Below, piece after piece: positions 4,628 through 11,341 of a DNA stretch of 64,000 bases. Position 1 is the stretch's first letter; each line of letters begins with the position of its first letter. Source of the DNA: Phragmitibacter flavus (GTDB lineage: Bacteria; Verrucomicrobiota; Verrucomicrobiia; Verrucomicrobiales; Verrucomicrobiaceae); the NCBI RefSeq assembly GCF_005780165.1, contig NZ_VAUV01000022.1:1-64000 (forward strand), read 5' to 3'. The notes under the pieces are model-generated. The model saw nothing but the letters and a program-made list of their open reading frames with translations. It did not search any database and was not told where the DNA came from. Position numbers and translations under genes: made by a program.

Positions 4628-5221
4628 ATGAAATACCCGACATCCTCCGCCAGCCTTTGGGCCAAACCATTGGCAACCCCAGCCTCCAACCCTGTCGCAC
4701 CCATCCGCCGTGCCAATCACTGGCGCTCTGGCTCCACCCTGGTCGAAATGGTCATCACCGTCGGCCTTCTCGTTTCCGTTCTCGTGCCGCTCGTCGGCCT
4801 TCTCACCATGGGCATGGAAACCAGCCTGAAGGCCGGTGTCAACACCATCGGCTCCCGCATTACCAACCAGCTCATGGGCGAACTCCAGCAAGCCGACTGG
4901 CAGGATCTGGACGGCTGGAACGGTCGCACCATGTATTTCGATGATCAGGGATTGGCCATGCCCGATTCCACCCTCGACCGCGCCGCCGCCTTCATGGCCC
5001 AGGTCTACATCTCCACCCCCGGCGTTAACCTTGCCACACACAACGCCAACGCCAACAACGCAACCCAGCGCAAAGTCACCACCGTCGTCTCCCCCGCCAA
5101 CGGCGAACGCAGCATCAAGTTGCTGGCCGACACCCTGAGCGCTCTCGAAGCAGGCAAGGCCACTCCCACCACCGTCAGAGTCGGCCATGGTCTCGTCACC
5201 AAAACCGGCAAAGACATCTAA
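4628..5221 (+). CDS. pseudopilin-like protein, Verru_Chthon cassette protein B type
   Basis: 197 aa. After a basic N-terminal stretch of about 36 residues comes a class III signal with SGSTLVEM: Gly at -1, Ser at +1 and the conserved Glu at +5. A hydrophobic helix (TVGLLVSVLVPLVGLL) follows, then a soluble domain. This is the architecture of a minor pseudopilin, most like GspI/PilV. It is first in a four-gene set whose order, sizes and N-termini match what I recall of the TIGR Verru_Chthon cassette families (B, C, D, A). The next gene starts 8 nt after its stop. Likely role: an inner-membrane or pilus-tip component, probably processed by a prepilin peptidase encoded elsewhere. Confidence 0.85.
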   Translation: MKYPTSSASLWAKPLATPASNPVAPIRRANHWRSGSTLVEMVITVGLLVSVLVPLVGLLTMGMETSLKAGVNTIGSRITNQLMGELQQADWQDLDGWNGRTMYFDDQGLAMPDSTLDRAAAFMAQVYISTPGVNLATHNANANNATQRKVTTVVSPANGERSIKLLADTLSALEAGKATPTTVRVGHGLVTKTGKDI

Positions 5222-5229
5222 TACCAAAA

Positions 5230-6336
5230 ATGAAGTTTCCCCTCCCATCATCTTCATTCGCGGGATCTGGCCCATCTCTGGATGCCAAAAAATCCCGCCA
5301 GGCCTTCACCCTGGTGGAGCTGCTCGTCAGCGTCGGCATCTTCTCCATCGTCCTTGTCGCCATGGGCGAGATGGTCAACGCCGTCCTCAACCAGCTTCGC
5401 ATCGCCGAAGCCCGCTTCAGCCAGTTCCAAGAATCCCAGGCCGCTTTCGACAGCATGACGCGCCGACTCTCCACCTGCGAAATCAACCCTTACTACGACT
5501 ACCAATACCCAGGGTCTCCCCCCGATACCAGCGCCGTTCCGACGAAGTATGATCTGGAGTCCGACCTCCACTTCGTCACCGGTCCCTCCAGCAGCGGCAG
5601 CCGCGCCCTCCTCTCCTCAGGAGACCACCCCACCCACGCCGCCTTCTTCCATGGAACCTACGGCCTCACCGACACCCCCGCCTGGCAGGAACTCGGCACC
5701 TTGCTCAACAGTTGGGGTTACTTCCTCGAGTTTGGCGACGACGACAACCATCGCGCCACTTTCCTCAACGACGCCAGCACCTCCCCAAAACGCTACCGCT
5801 ACCGACTCAAAGAATTGCAAGTCCCCGCAGAAGAGCTCCGCACCTACGCTGCCAAACTTAACACCAAAAACTCCGCCACCGACCTCTACGCCTGGTTCCG
5901 CACCGCCGTCACCGCCAACCACTCCCATACCCTTGCCGAAAACGTCGTTGCCCTCGTCATCAGCCCCCTTCTCGCCTCACCCGATGCCAGCGTTTACGAA
6001 AAAGAAACCGACCTCGCCCCCGACTACTTCTACGACACCCGCGCCTATCAACACAACGCCGCCAGCACCAATTTGATGCAACGCACCCGCCACAAACTCC
6101 CGCCACTGCTGCAAATTACCCTGGTCGCCATCGACGAAGCCTCCGCCCAACGTCTCGCCGACGAACACGGCAGCAGCATGCCCAACCTCTACCCTGGCAA
6201 CCTCTTCACCGACGCCACCCGCCTCAACGAAGACCTCACGACCCTCGAAGCCACCCTCACCGAGCGCAAACTTCGCTACCGCGTCTTCACCACCACCATC
6301 CGGCTGCGCAACGCCAAATGGACCTCCAACCCCTGA
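5230..6336 (+). CDS. pseudopilin-like protein, Verru_Chthon cassette protein C type
   Basis: 368 aa. Prepilin cleavage region RQAFTLVELLVS at about residues 29-40, with Ala instead of Gly at -1 and Glu at +5, followed by a hydrophobic helix. Next comes a heptad-rich segment (LNQLRIAEARFSQFQ, then FDSMTRRLS) that strongly recalls GspJ, in which a long N-terminal helix is followed by RL..L repeats. The remaining 270 residues are a soluble beta-rich domain I do not recognise. The spacing is 8 nt from B and 9 nt to D, so the three are translated as a unit. Probable minor pseudopilin in a tip complex. Confidence 0.85.
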   Translation: MKFPLPSSSFAGSGPSLDAKKSRQAFTLVELLVSVGIFSIVLVAMGEMVNAVLNQLRIAEARFSQFQESQAAFDSMTRRLSTCEINPYYDYQYPGSPPDTSAVPTKYDLESDLHFVTGPSSSGSRALLSSGDHPTHAAFFHGTYGLTDTPAWQELGTLLNSWGYFLEFGDDDNHRATFLNDASTSPKRYRYRLKELQVPAEELRTYAAKLNTKNSATDLYAWFRTAVTANHSHTLAENVVALVISPLLASPDASVYEKETDLAPDYFYDTRAYQHNAASTNLMQRTRHKLPPLLQITLVAIDEASAQRLADEHGSSMPNLYPGNLFTDATRLNEDLTTLEATLTERKLRYRVFTTTIRLRNAKWTSNP

Positions 6337-6345
6337 CCCGATCTC

Positions 6346-7005
6346 ATGAACCACTCTACCAGTTCACGTCACCGGAGCCGCGCCTTCACCCTCATTGAGG
6401 TCCTCATTGTCGTGACCATCATGGCCCTGCTCCTATCTGTCACTGCCAGCGTTTCCCAAGGCGTGGTCAACTCCATGAACTTCCGGCAGGCCATTCAAAA
6501 CGTCAAAACCCAGCTCGAAGCCGCCCGCCAATCCGCCATGACCACCAATCGCAGCGTCATGGTGCGCCTCATCGAAGGCGAAGACGAGTTTGGCAACCCC
6601 ATCTGGAACGGCCTTCAAATCGGCTCCGCCGAATCCATCGTCGATCCCGCTGCCGCCAATTACGCCACCCCTGTGTCCGGCAGCTTCGAACCCCAGTTCA
6701 AAGCCATCGACTCCATCGAGACCCTCCCCACCGGCTTCGTTTTCCACCCTGCCAGCACCTACTCCACTCTGCTTTCCAATCACGCCAGTCTCAACACCGG
6801 CACCATGACCGATTCCGCTGGCAGTAGCAGAAAATACACCGCCTTCAGTTTCCTTCCCGACGGACGTTGCTCGCTGCCCAGCGACACCGACTGGACCCTC
6901 ACCCTAGTTCGCGAGCAGGACATCAAAGCCGCCACCCTCCCCGCCGATTACGCCACCATCCAGCTCGACCCCCGCACCGCCCGCACCCGCGTCTACCGCC
7001 GATAA
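6346..7005 (+). CDS. pseudopilin-like protein, Verru_Chthon cassette protein D type
   Basis: 219 aa. Cleavage region SRAFTLIEVLIVV (about residues 5-17), again with Ala at -1 and Glu at +5. After the membrane helix, the segment TQLEAARQSAMTTNRSVMV is the classical GspH/FimT signature (AR..A...N..V.V), and a beta-sandwich-sized C-terminal domain follows. I assign it as the GspH-like member of the cassette. The stop codon (7003-7005) lies 3 nt before the left arm of a 34-bp inverted repeat, so the transcript into gene A must pass through that structure. Confidence 0.86.
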   Translation: MNHSTSSRHRSRAFTLIEVLIVVTIMALLLSVTASVSQGVVNSMNFRQAIQNVKTQLEAARQSAMTTNRSVMVRLIEGEDEFGNPIWNGLQIGSAESIVDPAAANYATPVSGSFEPQFKAIDSIETLPTGFVFHPASTYSTLLSNHASLNTGTMTDSAGSSRKYTAFSFLPDGRCSLPSDTDWTLTLVREQDIKAATLPADYATIQLDPRTARTRVYRR

Positions 7006-7008
7006 AAA

Positions 7009-7182
7009 ATCGTCCTCGTCCTCCTACTCGAACTCGTCCTCGACAACAGCGACTCTCAAGCACCCAAAATTCCCAAGCCCCGACAGCGCCCGATTCTTCA
7101 ATCTCCTACTTTTACTCTTACTCCTCCTCCCCGCTCAGCATGCCCATCCGAGGACGAGTTCGAGTAGGAGGACGAGGACGAT
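7009..7182. repeat. perfect 34-bp inverted repeat between cassette genes D and A
   Basis: The left arm 7009-7042 (starting ATCGTCCTCGTCC) is the exact reverse complement of the right arm 7149-7182 (ending GGACGAGGACGAT). The spacer is 106 nt and pyrimidine-rich. The arms are built from CCTCGT/CCTACT-like hexamers. It fills most of the 199-nt gap between D and A. It could fold into a long mRNA hairpin, for example to set the A:BCD ratio, or be a REP-like mobile unit. No transposase is nearby and no second copy was found in this window. Confidence 0.9.
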
Positions 7183-7204
7183 CACACCCCATCTCTCACT
7201 ACCC

Positions 7205-10200
7205 ATGCCCATGAAACATCACCCTTCCGGAATGGCCCTGCTCCCCGTTCTATTCATCATCTCGCTGATCACCATCATCGTGGTCATGTTCTTCAGCCTC
7301 TCGACGCTCCAATACAAATCCTCCACCGCCCAAGCCGCCGCCCAGGACGTCGGCAGCCTGCGCGACACCGCCCTCAACATCGCCATTGGCCAGCTTCGTC
7401 AAGGCACCACCGAAGCCAACGCCCTCTGGATCTCCCAACCTGGAGCCATTCGCACCTACGCCGCCAACAGCGGCACCGCCTCCAACATATACAAACTCTA
7501 CAGCGCCGGAGAAATGACCACCGCCGCCGATGGACTTACCGCCGCCGCGCAAAATCTCGAATCCGACGTTCCCGGCACCTGGAACGCCATGCCCCAAGTC
7601 TACGCCAACCTCAACGAACCCACCATTCGCGAAAACGGCGACCTCTCCTTTCCCATTATCGACCCCCGCGCCATGGACTCCATCAATCCGGTCTATCCGG
7701 TCAGCCAAACCCCCGAAGGTTTTCGCTACTCCGACAAACTCGCCGTCAGCGACGCTACCATCAGCGGCGTCCGTCCGCCCGGCACCACTCCCGAAGATCA
7801 ACGCCTCCCCATGCCCGTCCGCTGGATCTACATCCTCGCCAACGGCACCTACGGCGTGCTCGATCCCACCACCAAAAACTTCATCCCCTTCCAAGGGCAG
7901 GGAGTCGGCTCCACCCCATCCCCCGACAACCCCATCGCCGGCCGCATCGCCTTCTGGACCGACGACGAAACCAGCAAAGTCAACATCAACACCGCCAGCG
8001 AAGGCATCCACTGGGACACCCCTCGCGCCGCCACTCCCGAAGACGTCGAATACGCCAAACAACCTCCCGCCCGCAATGAAGTCCAGCGCTTCGGCGGCCA
8101 CCCCGCCTCCACCAGCCTTAGCAGCGTCTTCTTCCCCGGCCAACGTCTCCTCCCTGGCACGCCGGAGCATGCCATCAAGCTCAAGCAGATCTACGACATG
8201 GTTCCCCGCGTCAATTTCCGCTCCATCAACGATCCAAAAGCCCCCGCCGCCGGAATTCTCGGTGCCAACGCCACCCCCATCGCCTACGACAGCGACCGCC
8301 TTTACGCCAGCGTCGACGAATTCCTCTTCCAGGCCCCAAGCGCCAGTTCCGCCACCCCTGACGTGCGCCCCACCCAACCCCTCTTCGCCAGCAACCCGAA
8401 ACAAATTGCCCGACTGCGCTTCTTTCTCACCGCCGAAAGCCGCGCCCCCGAAACCACCTCCCTCGGCACCCCGCGCATGTCCCTTTGGCCCATCAGTGGC
8501 GATCCCAACAAAACCTCGAGCTACTACACCTCCTTCGACCGGGTCGCCATGTTCTCCACCACCCTCGGCGGCAAAACCTACAGCTACCGCCGCTACTCCA
8601 GCCCCACCAGCGCCCTCAGCGAATACGGCCTCAACTCCGCCGTCGCCCAAGACTGGAACAAAAACCTCAAAGGCAACGCCGACCTCGGCGACTACCTCGT
8701 CGCCCTCAGCGCCAACAATCTTCAGGGATACCCTGCGTCCATGACCGATAAATTCGGTTCATCCAATACCGCCGCCGGAATCATCTCCATGTTGGAATAC
8801 GTCCGCCAGACCAACATCCACGACACCACCCTCTCCACCGCCGGCACCAAAGTCTCCCCCTACGACATGGGCATCTGGGGCAAAGACACCTACGGCCCCT
8901 CCGAAGCCCACGGACAAATCATCAACGTCGCCGACACCATGGTCCCTCCTTCCATCGGCGATCAACTTCGCGCCGACCCCGACATCCGCCTCAACGCCCT
9001 CAACCGCATCTACACCATCTCCGAATTCGGACTCGTCCTCAGCCTCGCCGCCGAAAACCGCACCGACGGCACCAAATTTAATGATGCCCTAGTCACCAGC
9101 CTCAAACTTCCACCCGGCTACAAAGCCATCCAGGTCGGCACCGTTTTCGAAGGCTTCTGCCCCAGCCAGGGTTACTCCATGATCGCCCCCGCCGTCGGCA
9201 CGTGGATTGACGGCCTCCAGTATCGCACCTCGCCGACCACCAACGCAAAATCCGGCCTCACCATCATCACCAGCCAAAGCCCCAATGGCCGTCTTCCAGG
9301 AGGAGACATCACCAAAACCACTCCGGCCATTGAACAGACGAAAGGCCTCACCTCCCTCAACGAATGGCAACGCTGGGGTCGCTGGCAGCATTCCGTCCCC
9401 AGCCTGGCCTACCTCACCGGCATCAACATGCCAAGCACCATCGCCAGCAAACAATCCCAGGGAGCCAAATGGTGGGTCGGATGGGGCGGCTCCAGCGGAC
9501 GCTACCACTACATCGACCCGCCCACCGACGCCATCATCAGCGGCGGCTACGAAACCAATGTCAAAAACGTGGGCGTCAACAATTTCTACATGACCCAATT
9601 CGGCGAGACCAGCTCCACCTCCACCCACGCCTCCCAATACAGCCGCGGATTCTACCTCGTCCCCAGCAGCGACACCCACGTCACCCTAAAATCCACCAGC
9701 CCGCTCGAACTCTACAGCGGCTACGTCAACCACGGTCCCAATCACTCCCGCATTCTTCACGTCATCACCATTCCCCCCAACATGGTCGTGCCCGTGCCCA
9801 AAGCTCCCGTCGCCCGCAAGCCCACCTGGCGGCAACGCTTAATCGATGCCAGTGCCGCCCGTGCACGTCTCCCCGAAATCATCGACCCCAACGACGTGGT
9901 CAGAACCTGGACTGTTCGCCACGGCGACTACCGCCTCTCCTCCCTCCGCGAGAATGAGAGACCCGTCATCGGTCAACCCAGCAGCCTTCCCGAAAAACAT
10001 CGGCTTTTCGCACCTCATCCCAGTTGGAATCCCGCCGAACTGCCCGCCTCCGAACTGATCACCGCACAAGACACCCTTCAAATTCATTCCTTCACCAAAT
10101 CCGGTGGCGAATGGGAAACCCCCTCCGCGCGTCCGTCTCGCGGACTGGCAAACGGCGTCACCTACGCCGCGAAAAATCAGCCTGACTTCGTCCGCGATCC

Positions 10201-11341
10201 CGCCTCCGCTCAATACTTCCCCGGCAAACCCTCCTCCTACCCCTACAGCGTCGACCCCTCCGAAACCCGCGACTGGGACAACGGCACCGGCATCGCCCCC
10301 GATGGCGCTTACTGGAACAAACCCGATGACGTTGCCCAACAATGGGAAGGCACCATCCCCCCCTACTTTACCGCCAAACCCTGGGACGGCGTCCGCCCTG
10401 AACAACTCAATCAAACCGTCGCCCCCAACCAGCTCATCCCCTCCGCCGTCATGTTCGGCAGCATCTCCTCCGGAGTCCACACCGGCCTACCTTGGACCAC
10501 CTACCTCTTCCGCCCCAACCTCTCGCCCGTCGGTCACCTTGGCGAAAAAGGCAACGCCATCACCGGCACCCTGTCCGGCGCACCGCCCGACCACGCCATT
10601 CTCGACTGGTTTTGGATGCCCGTGTTGCAACCCTATGCCGTCAGCGAACCCTTCTCCACCGCCGGCAAGATCAACATGAACTACCGCATCGTCCCCTTCA
10701 CCCACATCAAACGCGCCACCGGCCTCCACGCCGTGATGAAAAGCGAACGTCTCCTCGCCATCCCCACCAGTGCCGGCAGCACCTACAAAGACTACGCCTC
10801 CGCCACTTCCAACAACGGTTGGCGTCACTACCTCGACATCGAAAAAACCCTCATCCAGTGGGAAGATCGCTTCGATGCCGGACAATTCTTCAAAACCCCC
10901 GGCGAAATCTGCGAACAATTCCTCGTGCCCGAAGGCCAGAACATTTCCTCCGAAGACCTCAGCGGCATCCGTTCCGACATGACCGACTTCTGGGACGACC
11001 ACAAACTCAGCGGCGACAACACCCTCGAACGCCCCTACGCCAACCTCTACCCCCGCCTCACCACCCGCTCCAACACCTTCCGCGTCCACTACCTCGTCCA
11101 AACCGTCCGCAAAGCCCGCACCAGCGACCCGCTCACCTACGATCCCGAAAAAGACAACATCACCGGCGAATCCCAGGGGGACGCCCTCATCGAACGCGCC
11201 ATCGATCCCAACGATCCCGCCCTCAGCACCCCCGACTACGACTACCTTGGCAAAGCCAACACCGGCACCCTCAACACCGCCAGGTCCCTCGACACCCTCT
11301 ACACCTGGCGAATCCGCCACCTGCGAAACTTCGGTCGGTAA
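7205..11341 (+). CDS. giant GspK-like protein, Verru_Chthon cassette protein A type
   Basis: 1378 aa. The N-terminus SGMALLPVLFIISLITI (about residues 8-24) is a GspK/PilX-like start: short basic lead, Gly, then a hydrophobic helix without Glu5. Around residue 260 lies DETSKVNINTAS, which resembles the K-N-N-T-A segment of GspK. After that the protein is about four times longer than normal GspK, with long Pro/Thr/Ser-rich and Trp/Tyr-rich stretches and no domain I can name. There may be an in-frame alternative start at 7211. It is last in the cassette, after the inverted repeat. Likely the large distal tip or substrate-contacting part of a pseudopilus-like machine. Family call firm, function unknown. 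Confidence 0.85.
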   Translation: MPMKHHPSGMALLPVLFIISLITIIVVMFFSLSTLQYKSSTAQAAAQDVGSLRDTALNIAIGQLRQGTTEANALWISQPGAIRTYAANSGTASNIYKLYSAGEMTTAADGLTAAAQNLESDVPGTWNAMPQVYANLNEPTIRENGDLSFPIIDPRAMDSINPVYPVSQTPEGFRYSDKLAVSDATISGVRPPGTTPEDQRLPMPVRWIYILANGTYGVLDPTTKNFIPFQGQGVGSTPSPDNPIAGRIAFWTDDETSKVNINTASEGIHWDTPRAATPEDVEYAKQPPARNEVQRFGGHPASTSLSSVFFPGQRLLPGTPEHAIKLKQIYDMVPRVNFRSINDPKAPAAGILGANATPIAYDSDRLYASVDEFLFQAPSASSATPDVRPTQPLFASNPKQIARLRFFLTAESRAPETTSLGTPRMSLWPISGDPNKTSSYYTSFDRVAMFSTTLGGKTYSYRRYSSPTSALSEYGLNSAVAQDWNKNLKGNADLGDYLVALSANNLQGYPASMTDKFGSSNTAAGIISMLEYVRQTNIHDTTLSTAGTKVSPYDMGIWGKDTYGPSEAHGQIINVADTMVPPSIGDQLRADPDIRLNALNRIYTISEFGLVLSLAAENRTDGTKFNDALVTSLKLPPGYKAIQVGTVFEGFCPSQGYSMIAPAVGTWIDGLQYRTSPTTNAKSGLTIITSQSPNGRLPGGDITKTTPAIEQTKGLTSLNEWQRWGRWQHSVPSLAYLTGINMPSTIASKQSQGAKWWVGWGGSSGRYHYIDPPTDAIISGGYETNVKNVGVNNFYMTQFGETSSTSTHASQYSRGFYLVPSSDTHVTLKSTSPLELYSGYVNHGPNHSRILHVITIPPNMVVPVPKAPVARKPTWRQRLIDASAARARLPEIIDPNDVVRTWTVRHGDYRLSSLRENERPVIGQPSSLPEKHRLFAPHPSWNPAELPASELITAQDTLQIHSFTKSGGEWETPSARPSRGLANGVTYAAKNQPDFVRDPASAQYFPGKPSSYPYSVDPSETRDWDNGTGIAPDGAYWNKPDDVAQQWEGTIPPYFTAKPWDGVRPEQLNQTVAPNQLIPSAVMFGSISSGVHTGLPWTTYLFRPNLSPVGHLGEKGNAITGTLSGAPPDHAILDWFWMPVLQPYAVSEPFSTAGKINMNYRIVPFTHIKRATGLHAVMKSERLLAIPTSAGSTYKDYASATSNNGWRHYLDIEKTLIQWEDRFDAGQFFKTPGEICEQFLVPEGQNISSEDLSGIRSDMTDFWDDHKLSGDNTLERPYANLYPRLTTRSNTFRVHYLVQTVRKARTSDPLTYDPEKDNITGESQGDALIERAIDPNDPALSTPDYDYLGKANTGTLNTARSLDTLYTWRIRHLRNFGR

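Follow-up and report, generated by a model that had tools for sequence, protein, structure and literature searches.

A multicopy Verru_Chthon cassette in Phragmitibacter flavus as a candidate pseudopilus tip for giant PEP-CTERM surface proteins

Introduction

The pseudopilus tips of type II secretion systems (T2SSs), the GspH-I-J-K set of minor pseudopilins, are parts of the export piston. Myxococcus xanthus offers a case in which several tips share a machine: three clusters, each comprising four minor pilins and a PilY1, serve one type IVa pilus apparatus (PMC7541494). GlyGly-CTERM and MYXO-CTERM proteins, which are also sorted through their C termini, are delivered to the cell surface by T2SSs (PMC11980579). 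The original report of the PEP-CTERM signal concerned Verrucomicrobium spinosum, which has 65 copies (PMC1569441). The Verru_Chthon cassette proteins A to D are listed in NCBIfam as subfamilies without an assigned function, and literature searches on the cassette name and on exosortases with pseudopilins found nothing relevant. Here, one such cassette, located in the window (the whole analyzed stretch of 64,000 nucleotides of P. flavus DNA), is compared with these systems.

Results

The window carries Verru_Chthon cassette proteins B, C, D, and A at positions 4628 to 11341, contiguous, in that order and all on the plus strand (Table 1). The coordinates, gene order, lengths, and reading frames given in a preliminary description of this DNA proved exact. 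Its identification of the set as Verru_Chthon A-D is borne out by NCBIfam: A, C, and D score above the curated cut-offs, and B lies just below, missing its own by 1.2 bits.

TABLE 1 Genes of the window cassette and their NCBIfam scores
Feature	Position	Strand	Character	NCBIfam model, score (cut-off)
Verru_Chthon cassette protein B, 197 aa	4628..5221	+	minor pseudopilin, prepilin N terminus	TIGR02598, 50.2 bits (51.4)
Verru_Chthon cassette protein C, 368 aa	5230..6336	+	GspJ-like minor pseudopilin	TIGR02599, 369 bits (256)
Verru_Chthon cassette protein D, 219 aa	6346..7005	+	GspH/FimT-like minor pseudopilin	TIGR02596, 125 bits (70)
Verru_Chthon cassette protein A, 1378 aa	7205..11341	+	giant GspK-like putative tip protein	TIGR02600, 1044 bits (332)

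The prepilin-type N termini claimed for B, C, and D can be read directly from the translations (RSG/STLVEM, RQA/FTLVEL, and SRA/FTLIEV, respectively), with Glu5 in all three. The N terminus of A, PSG/MALLPVL (SG/MALLPVLFI), lacks Glu5, as in GspK. The cassette proteins therefore conform to the pattern of T2SS minor pseudopilins, with Glu5 in H, I, and J and none in K, taking the E. coli set as the yardstick. The DETSKVNINTAS segment pointed out earlier in A is real, and nine of its residues (W251, T252, D253, D254, K258, N260, N262, T263, and A264) do not vary across the ten paralogues compared.

The cassette proteins resemble Gsp proteins in sequence only over the N-terminal helix region of 50 to 80 residues, and none of them attains the cut-off of a Gsp equivalog model in NCBIfam. 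A matches the GspK model NF037980 over its N-terminal 80 aa only (E value of 5e-7; 29.6 bits, cut-off 130), and C matches GspJ (E value of 3e-5; 24.1 bits, cut-off 64.85). D matches the GspH model TIGR01708 (E value of 9e-8; 32.3 bits, cut-off 80) and just exceeds the Pfam GspH cut-off (PF12019; 21.5 bits, cut-off 21.0). When aligned by hhalign to E. coli K-12 GspG/H/I/J/K, A matches K alone, C aligns best to GspJ, and D gives its longest alignment with H (67 columns), with GspG scoring higher on a short helix. These results agree with the GspK-like N terminus of the 1378-aa protein, the GspJ-like character of C, and the GspH/FimT signature of D in the preliminary description. Its GspI-like reading of B finds no independent support, as J scores slightly above I and hhalign cannot separate the two; B might be the GspI counterpart by elimination only, which is unproven. 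Taken together, the comparisons support an H-J-K-like tip set in which K is enlarged.

Structure prediction yielded an AF2 model of C with a mean pLDDT of 86.6, whose sole notable Foldseek matches in the PDB are two chains of TTHA1219 (5g23; probabilities of 0.98 and 0.97, E values of 0.01 to 0.02), a protein that its authors found nearest to XcpW/GspJ (PMC5131608). A was modeled through L156, a complete mature homologue of 1199 aa, in place of the 1378-aa window protein (mean pLDDT of 83.5, pTM of 0.87). The model has a 60-residue N-terminal helix, strands to residue 223, and three closing strands (1122 to 1196). Between these pseudopilin-like terminal segments lies a large mixed alpha/beta insert without a recognizable domain, beginning at the conserved DDE..K.N.NTA segment. 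This predicted layout is what a pseudopilin with a giant insert would be expected to show, the K fold itself being unproven. With regard to Gsp-type folds, the picture is mixed: the C model resembles the GspJ-like 5g23 (E value of 0.01), and the A model has no significant Foldseek match in the PDB. The C2-like beta-sandwich matches that Foldseek gave for A were weak (E value of 0.02 or worse) and were set aside. PDB searches by sequence gave nothing for A, chance-level matches for B, and pilin N termini only for C and D.

The cassette is multicopy. The genome (5.91 Mb, 99.9% complete) contains approximately 16 cassette or A-like loci, with ten canonical and six divergent A genes; two of the canonical A genes (C9:285k and C2:311k) stand alone, without B, C, and D. 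Five GspE/PilB ATPases occur at four loci (on contigs C3, C5, C2, and C9), together with five GspF/PilC proteins, six secretins, about four PilT-type ATPases, and three exosortases genome-wide. Three of the engine loci are T2SS-like. That on C9 encodes E, F, and a GspG over the cut-off; that on C2 encodes E, F, a GspH-like protein, and two further prepilins, beside a 1929-aa giant; and that on C5 has E and F, a secretin 7 kb off, and a cassette with PATR and PEP-CTERM genes (C5:88-103k) that sits inside the T2SS gene neighborhood. The fourth (C3:407-413k) is type IV pilus (T4P)-like and encodes a pilin, a PilC-like protein, and a pair of PilB-like ATPases. There are about four tips for every engine. 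The anticipated excess of cassettes over engines is thus found, at roughly 16 to four GspE/GspF loci, and the single shared engine originally envisaged gives way to four GspE/PilB plus GspF/PilC loci and six secretins. As had been noted for the surroundings of the window cassette, an ATPase or platform protein is missing nearby: no GspE/PilB or GspF match was found on its contig, C22.

Several further arrangements were seen around these genes. The two lone A genes lie 3 to 26 kb from GspF/GspE and were considered as "K plus engine" units. A shortened GspF-like protein of 365 aa, without GspE, is encoded 3 kb from one lone A (C2:318 kb; L081:13972-15069), and a secretin gene lies approximately 4 kb from the cassette on C17 (L085:596-3220; C17:32.6-35.2 kb).

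The neighbors of the cassettes include giant surface proteins. Seven giants flanking cassettes or an engine carry TIGR02601 "beta strand repeat" or T5SS/PEP-CTERM repeats and/or PEP-CTERM domains, and TIGR02595 (PEP-CTERM) is over its cut-off in five of the seven when scanned. Of the 16 cassettes in this genome, 8 have a PATR/TIGR02601 ORF less than 3 kb away, among the matches listed, against 1.6 expected (P = 5e-5 for random placement and 4.5e-4 for a rotation null, with some contig sizes interpolated). The proximity was replicated in genome G215, where 10 of 21 A genes lie within 5 kb of such an ORF (1.5 expected, P < 2e-5), and in G075, which belongs to a different family of the class (2 of 7 A genes, 0.16 expected, P = 0.01). 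Across 118 cassettes, drawn from the genomes plus 79 named loci with BvORR034 duplicates taken out, a PATR or large PEP-CTERM protein is encoded by 29/216 adjacent genes versus 5/539 genes at rank 4 or beyond (odds ratio, 16.6), and the P value of 3e-12 is optimistic because near-orthologous loci stay in the count. On a tree of 115 A proteins, no fewer than 15 changes are required to account for the linked state, which is therefore not the accident of one clade; this answers the issue of kinship in part.

The enrichment sits in the adjacent gene and reaches background by the fourth to fifth gene. Among linked giants, 35 of 39 are co-directional with the neighboring cassette gene (P = 3e-7), and 27 of these 35 are separated from it by less than 400 bp, several by 19 to 50 bp; at the extremes, one giant overlaps by 4 bp and one by 197 bp in the gene calls used, which come from a simple ORF picker. 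Beyond the scanned proteins, PEP-CTERM ends were recognized by a regular expression. The coupling of cassettes to barrel-less PEP-CTERM giants, new here, is non-random and operon-like. About half of the cassettes have no such neighbor, a share that is higher outside Verrucomicrobiaceae, and the genome has approximately 47 PATR ORFs for 16 cassettes, so the pairing is not one to one. Two T2SS-like loci (C2 and C5) themselves adjoin PATR/PEP-CTERM giants.

At C8:143457-149681 (L075:8458-14682), a PATR PEP-CTERM protein and A form one uninterrupted frame of 2074 aa. The PATR PEP-CTERM part (...VAVVPEPGRVLLLLTGGLCLVLRRRR) continues into A with no stop between, and the junction reads ...VVPEPGRVLLLLTGGLCLVLRRRRSVPPTSCREG-MKPYG...QSG-MVLVLVLVIM. 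The frame may represent a fused protein or a giant that lacks a stop codon of its own, and a sequencing error is also possible; GGGAGGGG-ATG inside it could provide a separate start for A.

Other gene arrangements were encountered along the way. PEP-CTERM ORFs with beta-strand repeats, 5363 and 4817 aa long, occur at C3:66-82 kb and C2:332-346 kb, and tandem cassettes or tandem A genes occur at L172, L153, L159, and L239, the last in the order A, PATR/PEP giant, A, A. At L157:1-2838, the place of the PATR protein upstream of A is taken by a surface protein with Ig domains (Ig_3, He_PIG), truncated by the contig end. In several Verrucomicrobiales MAGs, cassettes have other secreted neighbors and no PATR; the class of partner may thus differ between lineages. 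At L130, L131, L140-L143, L146, and L148 (Verrucomicrobiales MAGs, several of them marine), a secreted protein of approximately 800 aa heads a B-C-D operon, with A divergent. This protein is a candidate second partner class; the one scanned, the 813-aa protein of L130, has no Pfam match. Proteins whose first 60 aa match A, mostly of 700 to 1400 aa, are encoded in 136 of 241 Verrucomicrobiota genomes, and GspK-like proteins of large size may be widespread across the phylum.

The window cassette itself has no PATR/PEP-CTERM neighbor, and its flanking ORFs look metabolic by reading rather than by family search. In the A tree, its A falls in a well-supported clade of seven whose other six members are all linked. 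The closest relatives, in BvORR106 and BvORR034 (A 66 to 67% identical), have a divergent PEP-CTERM gene of 708 to 712 aa located 383 to 468 bp from B. In P. flavus, a tandem PEP-CTERM protein of 1366 aa at C2:387.7-391.8 kb is 45 to 48% identical to the 708-aa partner, the next match being far weaker. We infer that this protein may be the partner of the window cassette in trans, after a rearrangement.

The linked giants look like autotransporter passengers without a channel. They have the PATR passenger of type V secretion (T5SS) and end in a PEP-CTERM region in place of a C-terminal beta-barrel; in three of them, Pfam detected the PATR repeats and no autotransporter barrel. Their ends have the features of exosortase substrates, namely, a C-terminal PEP motif, a hydrophobic stretch, and a basic cluster, in a genome that encodes exosortases. 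The genome has 43 complete PATR ORFs, approximately 40 of which carry a PEP-CTERM-like tail as judged by regular expression and by eye; only those at C26:55-59k and C4:49-55k have beta-barrel-like ends. Being barrel-less, the giants need another route across the outer membrane.

Discussion

The barrel-less giants, the GlyGly-CTERM and MYXO-CTERM precedent, and the two T2SS-like loci beside giants lead us to propose that the cassette is a dedicated pseudopilus tip that relies on shared T2SS engines to export giant surface proteins of the PEP-CTERM type, a reading to which we assign a probability of about one in two. B, C, D, and A would form an H-I-J-K-type pseudopilus tip in which K, that is, A, is enlarged to 1300 to 1700 aa, and each cassette would be a dedicated, interchangeable tip. 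A, with C, B, and D, would recognize a particular folded PEP-CTERM PATR-repeat giant in the periplasm; the tip would then prime a pseudopilus, built by one of a small number of shared GspE/F/G engines, and the giant would be pushed out to the surface via a secretin. The engines, secretins, and exosortases are present in the genome, and the cassettes exceed the engines in copy number. We infer physical recognition, export itself, and the use of a T2SS rather than a T4P engine, the latter from proximity at two loci. The giants beside the cassettes move the earlier "substrate receptor" idea from a guess to a concrete hypothesis. In its fully multiplexed form, with one or few T2SS engines, many exchangeable tips, and each giant GspK acting as the receptor for the adjacent barrel-less PATR/PEP-CTERM giant, the proposal is more tentative.

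The main rival, which we regard as unlikely, holds that the cassettes equip one T4P machine with different tip adhesins, A being the adhesin and the giants co-regulated adhesins. M. xanthus offers the precedent of several minor-pilin clusters per machine (PMC7541494), A is PilY1-sized, the genome has the T4P-like locus at C3:407-413k and about four PilT-type ATPases, and divergent A proteins give sub-threshold PilX_N matches (best E value of 6e-4). However, the window A matches GspK rather than PilX, with no PilY1/PilC domain or PilX-type match in Pfam and NCBIfam, and the engines near cassettes or giants (C5, C2, and C9) are T2SS-like, unlike the C3 pilus locus. Nor does a pilus tip by itself explain the operon-like coupling to exosortase substrates.

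The tight linkage and the in-frame arrangement of giant and A on C8 could also reflect a surface assembly or anchoring device, in the form of a short pseudopilus that positions or displays the PEP-CTERM giant, for instance as exosortase processes it, with the giant itself crossing the outer membrane by other means. The large non-pilin insert that is predicted to make up most of A would suit such a role, but T2SS pseudopilus tips belong to an export piston, and a non-exhaustive search turned up no alternative path across the outer membrane for PATR proteins that lack a barrel; we consider this reading improbable. Least probable in our view is the absence of any functional pairing, with cassettes and surface-protein genes both duplicating heavily and gathering in the same surface islands. 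Both families are indeed large, PATR genes are clustered along the genome, and many cassettes are unlinked. The sharp fall of the enrichment from the adjacent gene to background by the fourth to fifth gene nevertheless weakens a passive island explanation, as do the co-directional orientation of 35/39 giants at short gaps and the recurrence of linkage over the A tree and in another family (G075).

If the proposed export by dedicated tips is true, multiplexed tips would solve the outer-membrane crossing of exosortase substrates this large, giving a candidate answer to how PEP-CTERM proteins pass the outer membrane and a testable function for four named families that have none. If the tips are substrate specific, a single genome would hold approximately 16 natural tip/substrate experiments for the long-standing question of T2SS substrate recognition.

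Compared to known systems, the cassette shares with the T2SS GspH-I-J-K tip the prepilin N termini, a K-like A, a J-like C, and an H-like D. It differs in that A is four times the size of E. coli GspK (327 aa) and C nearly twice that of GspJ, in its separation from GspC-G/L/M, and in the many tips per engine. As in minor pilin/PilY1 clusters 1 to 3 of M. xanthus, several tip cassettes with a large tip protein occur per machine (PMC7541494); there, PilY1 is a separate protein and the clusters number three, whereas here the large protein is K-like, lacks a PilY1 domain, and belongs to approximately 16 cassettes. The MYXO-CTERM and GlyGly-CTERM proteins are likewise C-terminally sorted surface proteins exported by a T2SS (PMC11980579), export here being proposed from genes; they depend on myxosortase or rhombosortase, in contrast to the PEP-CTERM/exosortase pair and the multiplied tips of P. 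flavus. With respect to Verru_Chthon A-D (TIGR02600, TIGR02598, TIGR02599, and TIGR02596), the window genes are members of this four-gene, multicopy set of the Verrucomicrobiota, to which the present analysis adds a count of engines and the linkage with PEP-CTERM PATR giants.
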